From: a virus
IMG/VR virus record: IMGVR_UViG_3300037070_001066
Span: 40,772-104,771 of that record
DNA: 64,000 bases
Direction: 5' to 3' (one strand)
The notes under the pieces are model-generated. The model made no database searches. It saw only the letters and a list, made by a program, of their open reading frames with translations, and was not told the origin of the DNA. This document shows, piece by piece, positions 36,580 through 42,855 of the stretch; within the stretch, counting starts at the first letter, position 1; every line of letters starts with the position of its first letter. A program made the position numbers and the translations under genes.

Positions 36580-38559
36580 TTATTTCTTTTTAGCTTGATT
36601 CTTGGCAATTCGTATCATCAATGCTTCTCTTGCATCTGAATCTACTTCTGCTCTTTGAACTAATTCTTTAGTTGGAATATTAGCGTATTGATTTTCTATT
36701 AATGCATTAGAAACTTCTGATCCTTGAAAATTACCAGTAACTTCATTTCTACCTCCCTTATCTTTCCAGAAATCAGCTATAGCTCCAGATAAAGATTTAT
36801 ATCCAGCTGCTGATCCTGCATCAAAAGAGTTAGAGAATTTTTTAAGTCTAAATGTTACAGTAACAGGTTTCTCTGCTCCTCCATATTGATCGTCTTCTCC
36901 TTGAATTCCTTTTAAATCATAATCACTAGCACCTTTTCCAGTGTTAAATGTCATTGTAATCTCAGGAGTTTTACTATCTCCATATGTTTTAATATTGTTT
37001 ATTTTAAATGATTTTGGATCACCATTTTTCAACAACTCTTGTATGTTAGAAACATCTTTACTATTAACATCTTTTCTATTACCACTAGGAGTTGAAATAC
37101 TTGTTAAATCTAATACGTTTCCTAAACTAGGAATACCTCTTAATGTATTATAAACACCTTCATTATGTAAATTCCAAATACTTTCCTCTTTAGGATTAGT
37201 TGGCATATATGAATAGTTATGTCTAGTTGAAGAAGATTCTTTCCAAGCAGCATTTTTTATTTCAGTATATTGACCATCTATTTGCCTAAGATCATTTCTT
37301 AATTTAGCTGTTTTAATTCTTGAACTCTTACCATTAAAGGTTGGAGCATTATATTCTATTTCAGCTAAATAATCATTATCACTCATTCCAGGTTTTCTTG
37401 GAACTTTGAATTCTTCTCCAAGTTTTTTAGCTTCTTCTTGTATTTTCTTTCTCTTCATATTAAGAGCAACATATTCTTTATTCTGATTTAATTTAGAATC
37501 TGCATTTCTTCTTAATTCATTTAAGTCTTCTAATTTAGCGGCATCTGCTGCACTAAGAGCTCCTTTTGATCCAGAAAGTCTTTTGATTTCAGTAAGAGCA
37601 TCTGTGTAAGTTTTGTTGTCTACAGCATTACTTTGTAATGTACTATCATTACTTATAATGGTTCCACTTCCAAAACCTTCTTCTGCTTTAGGATTTAAGG
37701 ACTCTGGTATGCTAAAATTTTCTCCTCTAGTGTCTTCGCTTCCTGTAGATACCATAGAACCAAATTTACCTTTAGCTTGATTTTGTAAGTTTTGTAAATC
37801 TAGTCCAGCATGTTCTGCCCACTTACGTCCTTCTCCTTCTTTTTCAAACCATCTGGCATTAAATGCCTTAATAGCGTCATTAACTTGAGGAACATTAGTT
37901 GAAGTTGTAAGATTACCTTTTCTATCAGCAAACATCATTTTACCTGTAGTAGAGTCTTGGAACACTCTATACCCGCTATTAGCTAATGCTGTAGAGTTAT
38001 GTCCTAAGATAGACTTAGCTTCCAATATATCTTTATCAAAGTCTTGCTTAGCAGGTGCTCCGTAAGCTCCTATATTAGATATTTTGTTATTACTATCAAA
38101 TCCTGTATAGTTATCTTTAGCATATTTAGCCCAATTCTCTTCAGCTCTAGCTTTACCTATTCCAGATTTATCTACAGCATCTTTAATATAAGCTTCTTTT
38201 TCTTTTGCATAAATTTCTTTAGCTGTATTAATTCTACCAATCTCTCCAGTAGGAGAAACTAAATCTTGTATTTCTCTATTTAGTCCTAAGGTCTTGCCTA
38301 TCATATCAGGATTAACTCCTTGAGAAGCAAGTTCTGCAGCAGTGGCGTCCATTTTACCTTCAATACCTTTCTTTAACTCAAGAGCTCTTTGATAATGAAC
38401 GTCTAACGGATCTACCTTAGCTAATCCACTACGTATTGCTTCTTGCTGAGCTATTACAGCATCATGCTGCTTCCGCTTCATGGCAGGAAGCATGGCTATT
38501 TCTTCCAAAGTTAGAGGAGTGTATGCGCTAGGCGATAAATTTGTGTAACGGTTAGCCAT
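36580..38559 (-). CDS. Late structural or cargo protein (659 aa)
   Basis: This protein starts MANRYTNLSPSAYTPLTLEE and has helical, Ala/Lys/Glu-rich content over its first 250 residues, then a beta-rich C-terminal part (PVTVTFRLKKF) before a basic tail. I do not recognise a named domain. The opening (N-terminal ~60 residues with PLTLEEIAMLPAMKR) looks like that of other crAss-like proteins placed beside the large cargo genes. The start overlaps the end of the GIY-YIG gene by 8 nt. Its first five residues equal those of that endonuclease, with different codons. Confidence 0.55.
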   Translation of the reverse strand: MANRYTNLSPSAYTPLTLEEIAMLPAMKRKQHDAVIAQQEAIRSGLAKVDPLDVHYQRALELKKGIEGKMDATAAELASQGVNPDMIGKTLGLNREIQDLVSPTGEIGRINTAKEIYAKEKEAYIKDAVDKSGIGKARAEENWAKYAKDNYTGFDSNNKISNIGAYGAPAKQDFDKDILEAKSILGHNSTALANSGYRVFQDSTTGKMMFADRKGNLTTSTNVPQVNDAIKAFNARWFEKEGEGRKWAEHAGLDLQNLQNQAKGKFGSMVSTGSEDTRGENFSIPESLNPKAEEGFGSGTIISNDSTLQSNAVDNKTYTDALTEIKRLSGSKGALSAADAAKLEDLNELRRNADSKLNQNKEYVALNMKRKKIQEEAKKLGEEFKVPRKPGMSDNDYLAEIEYNAPTFNGKSSRIKTAKLRNDLRQIDGQYTEIKNAAWKESSSTRHNYSYMPTNPKEESIWNLHNEGVYNTLRGIPSLGNVLDLTSISTPSGNRKDVNSKDVSNIQELLKNGDPKSFKINNIKTYGDSKTPEITMTFNTGKGASDYDLKGIQGEDDQYGGAEKPVTVTFRLKKFSNSFDAGSAAGYKSLSGAIADFWKDKGGRNEVTGNFQGSEVSNALIENQYANIPTKELVQRAEVDSDAREALMIRIAKNQAKKK

Positions 38560-39112
38560 TTGTTAAAAATTTAAAAGTTGTTTTATTAATTGTTTGCCCT
38601 CTTAAATATTGACTTAATGTAATCATTACAAAGCCATTTTCATTTGCACAATCTGCAATCGAGTCCCAAATTTTCCCAGTCTCAGTGCAAATAACTTTTT
38701 TAGCCATTCCACTATTTTTTTTAAGATTTTCTTTATGATATTCAGAATGTTTTATTCCTTTATTCCATGAAGGTTTTCCTAATTTATTTTTTGACATTTT
38801 CTTTTTAGATTTATCTGAATGTTTTAATCCAAAAGAACCTTCTCCTCCTAATGTTATATTACATAAAGTTCCGGTTCTAGAAGTTTTTCTTCCATAATAA
38901 TCAATTAAAATAATCTCTAATTCTTTAGCATCTTCTAATTCCATATCTTTTTTCAATATTTCAACTAAATAATCAGGATATTTTTTAATTGTTTTAGACC
39001 AAATATCATTTCTATGTCTTCTTTCATATGGTCTTTTTATATTACCTATGCCTATATAAAAGACTTCTCCATTTGGTTTTATATGTCTATATATGCAATA
39101 TCTATTTGCCAT
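38552..39112 (-). CDS. GIY-YIG homing endonuclease (second copy)
   Basis: This 186-aa protein has an N-terminal GIY-YIG domain (YCIYRHIKPNG, VFYIGIGN, RPYERRHRN) with the catalytic Glu expected in LEIILIDYYG. It continues with a NUMOD3-like basic segment (GLKHSDKSKKKMSKNK) and a C-terminal NUMOD1/helix-turn-helix-like DNA-binding part (ICTETGKIWDSIADCA). Free-standing enzymes of this kind cut an empty allele and spread by repair. The gene is wedged between two structural genes, overlapping the upstream one by 11 nt and the downstream one by 8 nt. It is probably a selfish element tolerated because it does not break either gene. Confidence 0.85.
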   Translation of the reverse strand: MANRYCIYRHIKPNGEVFYIGIGNIKRPYERRHRNDIWSKTIKKYPDYLVEILKKDMELEDAKELEIILIDYYGRKTSRTGTLCNITLGGEGSFGLKHSDKSKKKMSKNKLGKPSWNKGIKHSEYHKENLKKNSGMAKKVICTETGKIWDSIADCANENGFVMITLSQYLRGQTINKTTFKFLTNG

Positions 39113-42100
39113 AACTTCTTCTTGTTAAAAATCCACCATATGCTGAAACGGTAACTTCTTTACCTTCTGCATTTAAATATTTGTCTCCAGCTTTAAGTGT
39201 AGGAGGAGTTTTTCCTAATGCAGCTTCTTTCATTTTAGAAATCTCTTCTGGAGTTGCAACTTTACCTGTCTTTTTATTTACAAGATAATTACCTCTTCTA
39301 TCGTATCCATACATATTAGCAACTTGATCCATTCTGTCATTTTCTAATCCAATTGCTCCAATATCATTACCTATTTGAGATGTAAACTTAGATCTTTGTG
39401 AATCATAATTTGCAATATCTTTATCATAAGTTTCTCTATCATAGTCAGATTTACCTGCATTATATTGAGCAATTTGACTTTTGTATTGTTGTTCTTGCAT
39501 TGCTCTGTTTATTCTAATATTCTCAAGACCTTCTTGCGTTTTAGATATAGCCTCATTTTGCTGTGCGCCTATACCTAACATTGCTGCTCTTTGTTGTGCT
39601 TGACTACCTCCCATTTGACCTAAAGCTCTATACTTATTATTGTATGCAGCATTTATATCTCTCATTGCTCTAGCTTCATCTACTTGAGGCACATTGTAAG
39701 CATCATTAAGTCTAGCAGAATATGTTCCTGTAGGTTTAGTTATTTTATCTCTTTCTATGTAGTTAGATATAGCAGGATATAATCTCATTGCTGAATTAGC
39801 TGCGCCTTTTAAATCTCCAGCATTTTCACCTAAAAATGAACTTGCATTTGGATTACTTGCATTTGCACTTATATTACCAAAATCATTTTGTAAAGTATTT
39901 CTATTTAAATATTGACTAGCTAAATCATCAGTTATGCCTTTATCTGTTAAAATACCTTCTTCGCCATATTTACCTCCTCCTAAATATTTCTTTTTAATCA
40001 ATCCACCATTCTTGGCATAAGTAGGAGTAGTCTTGTCTTTATTTTGAGCTATTGTGTTTACTGCTTTCACTATATTATCATTATCATATGTTCTATAAAA
40101 ATTTTCAGATTCAGCACCTGCTGCTTTAGTTCTAGCTTCAAGATCTGCTCCGTCTTTGATAACTTCTCCAGGTTTTAAACCAAGTTTAGTTCTAAATTGA
40201 TGAAAGTTCCCATAAGTCTCTTCAGGAGTTTGCATGTATCTTTTTACATCTCTCTTGGCATTTTTCACCTTTTGATCATAAGGACTTCCTAAAACTTTCT
40301 GAGTTGCTGGTCCTAAGATAGAATCAACTCCCATTCCATGTGCAATCTCATGATCTACTACACCTTTACCTGCTCCTTTTTCAAATACTGTATTCTCATT
40401 TGGATATCTAGAGAATTGAGCTTGAGTTCCATCTCCAGGAGTTCCTGCGCTTATTGGCACATTTAGACCGTGAGCTATTAAAGGATTTAATACATTAGAA
40501 TCCATTCCTGTATTCTGAGTAAATCTTCTTCTAGTTTCAGGATTGTTGTACCAGTTTTGAATATTATTTCTTGCAGAGATAACTTCTTGGTCGTTGCCTG
40601 TGTATGGTTTTATTTTTTCATTTAAACCAATTCTTCTAGGTTCTTTTCTAGTTCCTGAAGCAGTTGCTTGAACTATTCCAGTTGTGCTTGGTATTGCATA
40701 CATTCCATATTCTTGTGGCAATGTAGGTCTAGACATTTTGTTTACACCAAGTATATCATTAGGTTTATTGTAGAAATCATTAGCATTATATTTAGGAGGA
40801 TTTATATGACCACCATCTGCAAAACTATCTTTAACAGTTGAATATCTTTCTTTTAATTCTATTTTAGGATTTATTTTTCTAGCTTTTTTAGCATATTCAT
40901 CAATCATTCTTTTTTCCCTGCTGCCTTGATCAATTGTTTCTGACAACATTTGAGGAACTCCTCCTGGTAATATTCCTATAATATCAGCAGGATTGTAAGA
41001 TTTATTATTATTATACGAGTCATAAATACCATACATAGATCCAACATTACCTGGAAATTTTGAAAGGACACCTCTATTTAACAATTTACTTGACACTTGC
41101 AATGCGTCTGCACCTCTTTGTACTGTATTAGTATCGTCTTCTGAAGTAACTTTTCCTCCACTTGCATATTTAGAAGGCTTATGTGTAATATAACCACCCA
41201 TTGCAGCTACACGTTCTTCTGCAGGACCACCTATACCTGTCCATGCACTTGAATTAGGCATACCCGCATTAACTTTATTAATCAACATATCTTGGCCTTC
41301 AGCTATATTCTTTTTAGCCTTTTGTGAACCAAAATATCCTGACGCTCCACCTATAACTGCACCTGCTGCTGCACCCCAAGGCCCAAACATCATACCAGCT
41401 GAAGCTCCTTGTACAGCTCCTGACGCTATAGCACTACCAGCCTTTGGTGAAGTATTACCAGTTTTAGCAGTATTGTATAGATCAAATGCTGTTCCAGCTG
41501 CTTTCATATAACTTCCAGCACCACTTAACATCCCTGACGTAGCATCAGCTCCGCCTGCAGCAGCTCCGGCTCCAGATCCAGTTAAACTAGTTGGCATAGC
41601 AGGAGCCTCAATAGACTGAGGCATAGATTTACTTTGATCATACATACTACTAAACATACTACCATAAGAACCTCCATTATCAAATGATTGTTGTTCTCCA
41701 GCATATTCTTCCATTCCTTCAGGAACTTCTGTATTTTCAGGAGCAACTTGCTGAGAGTTCATCTGCATAGCTTGTTCTAGTTGCTCTTGCTGAATTCTCT
41801 TTTGTTCAGCTAACTGTGTGGCTCTTTTTGTAAACGCATCTAAAGTTTCTTTATCAGCTTTACTACCAGCTTTATCTTTAAACTTACCACTAAGTTTACC
41901 CATGTATTCACCAGCAGTTACAGGAACTCTACTAGATGGTAGTCCAGCTGCTTTAATCTCTTCAGGAGACCATACTTGTCTATCTGAAAATATATACTTA
42001 GATCCTGTAGGTTTTTCTGTAGGAACGCCACTTTGATCAAGATTTACAGAAGTCTCTCCTTGCTCAACTAATGAATCTTCACCTAAAGGAATTCCTGAAT

Positions 42101-42218
42101 GTGGGTTAGACTCATGACTTCCACCGACATTATATGTAGTAAAAGGCCCTCCATTATCATATGTCTTTCTAGGATTTAGATAATCATTATATTTGTCTTT
42201 AATGTTATTATTCTGCAT
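39102..42218 (-). CDS. Large ejection/pilot-like protein with HExxH motif
   Basis: This 1038-aa protein has an N-terminal segment typical of crAss late proteins (GGSHESNPHSGIPLGE ... YIFSDRQVW). A glycine/alanine-rich hydrophobic stretch near residues 265-300 (SGAVQGASAGMMFGPWGAAA and onward) could insert into or cross a membrane. A zincin motif is H623-E624-I-A-H627 in VVDHEIAHGMG, surrounded by a Gly-rich and Asn-rich region. The C-terminus includes Ala/Gln-rich helices (QMGGSQAQQRAAMLG). Such a mixture suggests a protein released into the cell envelope during DNA entry; peptidase activity is suggested by the motif only. It overlaps both flanking GIY-YIG genes by 11 nt. Confidence 0.6.
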   Translation of the reverse strand: MQNNNIKDKYNDYLNPRKTYDNGGPFTTYNVGGSHESNPHSGIPLGEDSLVEQGETSVNLDQSGVPTEKPTGSKYIFSDRQVWSPEEIKAAGLPSSRVPVTAGEYMGKLSGKFKDKAGSKADKETLDAFTKRATQLAEQKRIQQEQLEQAMQMNSQQVAPENTEVPEGMEEYAGEQQSFDNGGSYGSMFSSMYDQSKSMPQSIEAPAMPTSLTGSGAGAAAGGADATSGMLSGAGSYMKAAGTAFDLYNTAKTGNTSPKAGSAIASGAVQGASAGMMFGPWGAAAGAVIGGASGYFGSQKAKKNIAEGQDMLINKVNAGMPNSSAWTGIGGPAEERVAAMGGYITHKPSKYASGGKVTSEDDTNTVQRGADALQVSSKLLNRGVLSKFPGNVGSMYGIYDSYNNNKSYNPADIIGILPGGVPQMLSETIDQGSREKRMIDEYAKKARKINPKIELKERYSTVKDSFADGGHINPPKYNANDFYNKPNDILGVNKMSRPTLPQEYGMYAIPSTTGIVQATASGTRKEPRRIGLNEKIKPYTGNDQEVISARNNIQNWYNNPETRRRFTQNTGMDSNVLNPLIAHGLNVPISAGTPGDGTQAQFSRYPNENTVFEKGAGKGVVDHEIAHGMGVDSILGPATQKVLGSPYDQKVKNAKRDVKRYMQTPEETYGNFHQFRTKLGLKPGEVIKDGADLEARTKAAGAESENFYRTYDNDNIVKAVNTIAQNKDKTTPTYAKNGGLIKKKYLGGGKYGEEGILTDKGITDDLASQYLNRNTLQNDFGNISANASNPNASSFLGENAGDLKGAANSAMRLYPAISNYIERDKITKPTGTYSARLNDAYNVPQVDEARAMRDINAAYNNKYRALGQMGGSQAQQRAAMLGIGAQQNEAISKTQEGLENIRINRAMQEQQYKSQIAQYNAGKSDYDRETYDKDIANYDSQRSKFTSQIGNDIGAIGLENDRMDQVANMYGYDRRGNYLVNKKTGKVATPEEISKMKEAALGKTPPTLKAGDKYLNAEGKEVTVSAYGGFLTRRSYGK

Positions 42219-42855
42219 TTGCTAAATATATAAAATTAGTATTATTTTTTCTAGAACCACTTAATTTTCTAGACATATTTTTTGGATTTAAATTATTTTC
42301 AATACAACATTCGCTTAAAGAATTCCATATTTTTTTGGTGTCCAAGCATATTACTTGTTTAGATGCTGGATTATCCTTTCCAGTTTTTCCATACATTCCA
42401 TTTTTATCTCCTTTTTTTGCTTCAGATATATTTTTACGAACATCTATTGTTCTTTCTGGTCTTTTTTTACCTTTTCTTGATAAACTCATTTTTTCACAAC
42501 ACTCTTTTGATCTTTTTTTCCCTTTATTAGAATTACTTATTTTTAATCTAGACTCTTCACTTAATCTAATTGGTAAAATATCTGTTTCTGTTAAAACGCA
42601 GTTTAATCCATTTTCACTTAAAACATTGTAATAGTCTTGCCAATATCTTTCTTTAATGTTTAAATCATCAAAAATACATTCATCAATAAATTCAAAAACA
42701 TGATTATCGTATCCATATTTGTATAAAGAGCTATACAATTTAGGTTGACCTTTACAACTTAAGTTTTTATAATATGAAATCCTCTTTTCATAATTAGAAC
42801 TTTGTCCTATATATATCTTTCCAGATGGACTTGTTATTTTATATATCCCTATCAT
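42208..42855 (-). CDS. GIY-YIG homing endonuclease (first copy)
   Basis: The start is ATG 42855 (215 aa), because MIGIYKITSPSGKIYIGQSS is the standard opening of the domain and the upstream TTG lies in a terminator. After the GIY-YIG domain come NUMOD3-like repeats (ISNSNKGKKRS, KMSLSRKGKKRP, GMYGKTGKDNP) and a C-terminal NUMOD1-like part (ICLDTKKIWNSLSECC). It is inserted between the tail protein gene and the 1038-aa gene and overlaps the latter by 11 nt. A promoter and a terminator lie in the 140-nt space before it. Confidence 0.87.
   Translation of the reverse strand: MIGIYKITSPSGKIYIGQSSNYEKRISYYKNLSCKGQPKLYSSLYKYGYDNHVFEFIDECIFDDLNIKERYWQDYYNVLSENGLNCVLTETDILPIRLSEESRLKISNSNKGKKRSKECCEKMSLSRKGKKRPERTIDVRKNISEAKKGDKNGMYGKTGKDNPASKQVICLDTKKIWNSLSECCIENNLNPKNMSRKLSGSRKNNTNFIYLANAE

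Follow-up and report, generated by a model that had tools for sequence, protein, structure and literature searches.

Mobile endonuclease open reading frames (mORFs) that duplicate the carboxy-terminal part of their target gene have been described in fungal mitochondria, in atp6 of Allomyces macrogynus and in atp6, atp9, cox2 and nad3 of Glomus sp. (PMC3630166). In phage T4, free-standing seg and mob endonucleases lie between essential genes, often overlap the upstream open reading frame (ORF; 11 bp for segF), and are accompanied by co-conversion of flanking sequence, as described in passages of a review (PMC2988022). Intron-encoded endonucleases of phages and mitochondria are inserted within coding sequence, and the insertion itself breaks their site. 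Synthetic home-and-rescue drives combine homing into a gene with a recoded rescue copy that is not cut (PMC7968924). Here we analyzed a 64,000-nt stretch (the window) of a 104,771-bp virus record from IMG/VR (IMGVR_UViG_3300037070_001066, positions 40,772 to 104,771) that contains HEG1, an ORF of 186 amino acids. We estimate a probability of about 0.77 that HEG1 is a start-capturing, free-standing homing endonuclease that carries a diverged rescue copy of its target gene's start.

The fungal mORFs are the nearest parallel. As proposed for HEG1, an endonuclease ORF within coding sequence brings a diverged, largely synonymous replacement end, which results in a working hybrid gene (PMC3630166). 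The mORFs replace the 3' end, and the native C-terminus persists as a relic (PMC3630166), whereas HEG1 resides in a phage and would replace the 5' end, with the native start becoming the start of the endonuclease itself. HEG1 resembles the T4 enzymes in its free-standing position and its overlap with the upstream ORF; unlike at HEG1, neither a captured target start nor a recoded downstream start is mentioned in the review passages (PMC2988022). It shares insertion within coding sequence with the intron-encoded enzymes, from which it differs in that the target gene would be restarted from a second copy rather than spliced. Indeed, both ORFs neighboring HEG1 are complete without splicing, the two genes are directly adjacent in insert-free relatives, and the ORF layout gave no sign of an intron (Rfam was not searched). 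The likeness to home-and-rescue drives, which are engineered CRISPR systems in insects, is an analogy of logic only (PMC7968924). Our literature searches, which covered open-licence papers, found no phage report of a start-capture arrangement, and the terms "start codon" and "overlap" are absent from a 2023 survey of phage endonucleases (PMC10448857).

HEG1 and the two MANRY starts

HEG1 (38552 to 39112, minus strand) lies between a gene for a 1038-aa protein and its putative target, a gene for a 659-aa protein (36580 to 38559, minus strand). It matched phrog_314, annotated "homing endonuclease" (E=3e-18), and NUMOD3, a modular DNA-binding C-terminus, with 23 bits (cut-off 20.4). The Pfam GIY-YIG match (E=0.004, 17.8 bits) fell under the 22.6 cut-off, and the catalytic motif CIY...FYIG was found in the sequence. 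A PDB sequence search gave no meaningful match. Profile searches for further orthologs found none beyond the window's own phage and one other phage, L011, and a search of genome contigs returned one locus only. The element is polymorphic at a single junction, present in the window and L011 and absent from 11 relatives. By its domains and this polymorphism, HEG1 classifies as a free-standing GIY-YIG homing endonuclease.

HEG1 begins ATG GCA AAT AGA TAT (ATGGCAAATAGATAT; 39098 to 39112), and the 659-aa gene begins ATG GCT AAC CGT TAC (ATGGCTAACCGTTAC; 38545 to 38559). Both encode MANRY, with a synonymous difference at each of the four codons that follow ATG. We read the first five HEG1 codons as the original, captured start of the 659-aa gene, and the second copy as its recoded rescue start. 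Both ends of HEG1 overlap its neighbors. The 1038-aa gene ends Y-G-K-TAG within ATGGCAAATAG, sharing 11 nt with the HEG1 start (39102 to 39112). At the other end, HEG1 runs 8 nt into the 659-aa gene (ATGGCTAA; 38552 to 38559), and its TAA stop is formed by the recoded GCT-AAC. The original prediction, drawn up from the window alone, did not include this second overlap. Its other structural claims hold: a homing endonuclease insertion (by phrog_314, NUMOD3, and the insert-free relatives), a repeated but recoded MANRY start (exact at 4 of 4 codons), and an 11-nt overlap with the upstream gene.

The two MANRY starts could be coincidental if the endonuclease family often begins M-A-x-x-Y and the 659-aa gene happens to begin MANRY. 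Indeed, Ala occupies residue 2 in 47% of the family and Tyr residue 5 in 63%, and the L011 ortholog starts MNNNY. However, the product of the four residue frequencies among 92 family members gives an expectation of only ~3e-4 for A-N-R-Y at positions 2-5. The pattern is also seen at unrelated genes, far more often than shuffled pairs would predict, and direct insert-free counterparts exist (see below); we consider coincidence improbable. The spelling is itself unusual. Under window codon usage, A, N, R, and Y spelled twice independently would differ at all four codons in ~2.5% of cases. Of the four new codons, three are less used in the genome (CGT 9%, TAC 24%, AAC 26%), with a joint probability of 0.005 for AAC, CGT, and TAC, while AGA, AAT, and TAT are common in the window.

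Insert-free relatives and a second phage with the element

Profile scans of IMG/VR yielded 13 loci with a 659-like gene: the phage of the window itself (L001/L015; L001 represents the same or almost the same phage), L011, and 11 insert-free crAss-like relatives. The 659-aa protein had no match in Pfam, PHROG, or the isolate phage records of INPHARED, and all relatives were therefore drawn from IMG/VR. In every insert-free relative (11 of 11) the 1038-like and 659-like genes are directly adjacent, the latter starting MANRF, MANRY, MNRY, MNRF, MPINRY, or MSTVNRY.

The original prediction had set a check beforehand, namely whether insert-free junctions read like the endonuclease start or like the recoded one. 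The outcome favored the endonuclease start. The recoded AAC-CGT-TAC codons occur in 0 of the 11 insert-free relatives, and all five MANR[FY] starts lie nearer to HEG1 (12-14 of 15 nt) than to the recoded start (9-11 of 15). The closest are L007, L022, and L027 (14/15), followed by L002 and L024 (12-13/15). Over the N-R-Y/F codons, the 11 relatives matched the HEG1 start at a mean of 7.7 of 9 positions and the recoded start at a mean of 5.2 of 9.

L011 carries its HEG1 ortholog at the same junction (66% amino acid and 71% nucleotide identity). There, the target gene starts ATG GCA ACT AAC CGT TAC ACA, such that the AAC-CGT-TAC-ACA spelling after the endonuclease is common to both phages. A 14-nt sequence, CTAACCGTTACACA, is identical in the two and contains the endonuclease stop codon in each; the L011 overlap, with the identical TAA, is 11 nt. 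In the capsid gene the window is the outgroup (0.78 nucleotide identity) to L011 and its insert-free relatives (0.82-0.83). Despite this position, the window and L011 are most alike in the first 60 codons of the 659 gene. This pattern is a moderate signal, in keeping with the endonuclease and the recoded 5' end having been transferred or inherited as a unit. In L011, the 659-like gene (L011:3554-5365) is also a mosaic, with a window-like N-terminal part, a middle resembling L002/L007 or L021, and a C-terminus of another type.

Start copies at other genes

We surveyed 80 loci found with a profile of the HEG1 endonuclease family and 80 found with a second profile. For the 92 distinct cases with a downstream gene, the endonuclease residues before the catalytic core were aligned to the start of the next gene, and endonuclease/next-gene pairs re-dealt within the survey served as the control. 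Start-copy scores of at least 20 were observed in 6 of 92 cases (0.72 expected on re-pairing) and scores of at least 25 in 3 of 92 (0.08 expected). Four different targets remain after removal of one homologous and one low-complexity case.

The copies vary in length and exactness. The L072 endonuclease begins MINCNEIQ and the gene behind it MINCSEIQ; for L273 the pair is MATIQCNE and MATITCLE. As these two endonucleases are 58% identical and sit at the same gene, they were counted as one target. In L097 both ORFs begin MANTY, spelled ATGGCTAACACTTAC and ATGGCAAACACCTAT. The L138 endonuclease begins MKICVYA ahead of a glycosyltransferase gene reading KLKICVYA, and the L143 endonuclease begins MTKVTKASQKGLDL ahead of an endolysin gene reading MKITKTSSKGIDL, for which an insert-free relative starts MAKIVKASEG. 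L294 and L118 were not counted, being of low complexity or too short. In L104, L242, and L100, three related endonucleases are each found at the beginning of a GroEL-like phage gene (EARDK...), and L104 may hold a KEI start copy.

Two of these loci allowed direct comparison of filled and empty alleles. L072 and L007 belong to one record. Over the region compared, L007 and L002 share ~93% identity, and L231 is the L002 copy of the tail gene targeted in L072. Without an endonuclease, this gene starts ATGAATTGCAACGAAATACAACAAAATATAAATGCA. The L072 endonuclease starts ATGATAAATTGCAACGAAATACAA and continues into its own body, and the gene behind it restarts ATGATTAATTGTTCAGAAATACAACAAAATATAAATGCA. 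At the nucleotide level, the endonuclease start AATTGCAACGAAATACAA is identical to the insert-free start in L231 (18 of 18 nt), and on this identity we take the captured start to be the insert-free sequence. The gene behind reads AATTGTTCAGAAATACAA, changed at TGC-AAC. The pair is not perfectly clean, as L072 has an extra upstream gene. Similarly, the L273 endonuclease start matches insert-free L233 at 23 of 24 nt, and the gene behind it encodes TCLE where insert-free relatives have CNE or CSE. The restarted genes (L273:3013-3417 and L230) read TCLE and CSE where most insert-free relatives have N (CNEI), which suggests that the restart alters the protein itself. In both pairs, then, the endonuclease start is the insert-free start and the gene behind is changed, in line with the insertion reading of the original prediction. 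As in the fungal mORFs, a gene end has been re-supplied by a diverged copy, in the window and L011, in L072 vs L231, and in L273 vs L233; the replaced end is the N-terminus here rather than the C-terminus.

Alternatively, HEG1 could have inserted between the two genes and its start later converged on that of its neighbor for the sake of translation, through an A-rich ATGGCA context, initiation, or coupling. ATGGC starts are common in this phage, as are overlaps of 1, 4, 8, 11, and 14 nt in the family. However, convergence would leave unexplained both the copies of 8 to 14 residues in L072, L273, and L143 and the 18-23 nt identity to insert-free alleles. It is strained by the L072/L231 and L273/L233 pairs, and we regard it as very unlikely.

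Possible donor alleles and the second start

A second GIY-YIG and NUMOD3 endonuclease, HEG2 (MIGIYKI...; 42208 to 42855, minus strand), lies directly upstream of the 1038-aa gene and overlaps its start by 11 nt. It carries no start copy (there is no MANRY repeat), and none was seen in 80 loci of the HEG2 family, as expected because this family has no residues before the catalytic core. HEG2 homologs occupy the same place in L007 and L011 and are absent in L002; in the window, L007, and L011 the stop TAA falls 11 nt into the next gene. L002 and L007 are thus near-isogenic phages without and with HEG2. Their upstream flanks are ~93% identical to within a few nucleotides of the HEG2 start. In the gene behind it, the first ~240 nt are only 67-80% identical (L002:4358-4600 vs L007:4343-4590), followed by 95-98% identity. 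Another diverged patch lies further on in this gene. The tract is supportive of the idea that such an element can bring in a foreign 5' end.

The genes neighboring HEG1 and HEG2 (659-aa and 1038-aa), like the two elements, are on the minus strand. The 659-aa gene lies in the virion region, and its N-terminus, M(A)NR[FY], is conserved in crAss-like relatives. The 1038-aa gene (39102 to 42218) has a weak, below cut-off match to crAss_CARG1, a cargo protein 1 domain. Because of this match and a capsid protein 46% identical to that of crAss001, the window phage is classified on sequence as a crAss-like phage.

The HEG2 tract bears on the main alternative for HEG1, in which start capture is real and the second start differs only by co-conversion from a diverged donor phage, without selection for resistance. 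Besides the ~240 nt diverged only behind the endonuclease, this alternative draws on the parallel second starts, whose amino acid changes (CSE, TCLE, and the endolysin) are what a diverged allele predicts. Against it, the window has only synonymous changes at the four codons, less used codons have come in at three of them, and the spelling has been kept in L011. We give it nearly an even chance. It is also not exclusive, as a donor allele must still escape cutting. The original prediction had proposed a junction copied during insertion and then recoded. The captured start and its second copy stand, while a copy made and edited in this genome is less likely. The element probably brought the second start with it, as a diverged donor allele, since the parallel cases also carry amino acid changes. 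That recoding prevents re-cutting is plausible, and the changes may have been selected, may have arrived with the donor allele, or both.

Several observations weigh against start capture at HEG1. The MNNNY start of the L011 ortholog implies either that the captured codons have drifted there or that the match in the window owes something to chance. Any MANR start would resemble that of HEG1 through AT-biased codon usage alone; AGA, AAT, and TAT being common, the comparison with insert-free starts is not conclusive when taken alone. There is no near-isogenic empty/filled pair for HEG1, the nearest relatives being ~50% identical in the 659 protein. Finally, over 80 of the 92 surveyed endonucleases carry no start copy.

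The anatomy of start capture is nonetheless well supported by sequence comparison: a gene interrupted after a few codons, its start taken over, a diverged restart, and overlapping stop and start. In the mechanism we propose, HEG1 would have entered the 659-aa gene after about five codons. With its frame fused to the original ATG and first codons (MANRY), the endonuclease would be translated from the start of its target. The 3' end of HEG1 would bring the diverged copy of the lost start, which would restore the target gene and also provide the HEG1 stop codon. HEG1 probably targets the 5' end of the 659-aa gene in its original, uninterrupted form. In a mixed infection, the enzyme would cut insert-free alleles at this site. 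With the endonuclease-bearing phage as the repair template, both the endonuclease and the recoded 5' end would be copied in, and the latter may then escape cutting.

Start capture would explain how an endonuclease that has no intron can invade coding sequence and leave its host phage viable. The cleavage site would be predictable from sequence alone, as the captured start joined to the gene body, and an endonuclease N-terminus equal to its neighbor's in different codons offers a search signature. More tentatively, at slightly less than even odds, phage GIY-YIG elements may recurrently act as natural 5' home-and-rescue drives that cut and enter the first codons of a gene, take its start, and carry a selected, cleavage-resistant copy, with element and target forming a compact overlapping unit. 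Such elements would parallel recoded-rescue gene drives in nature and would mirror, at the 5' end, what mORFs do in fungal mitochondria.
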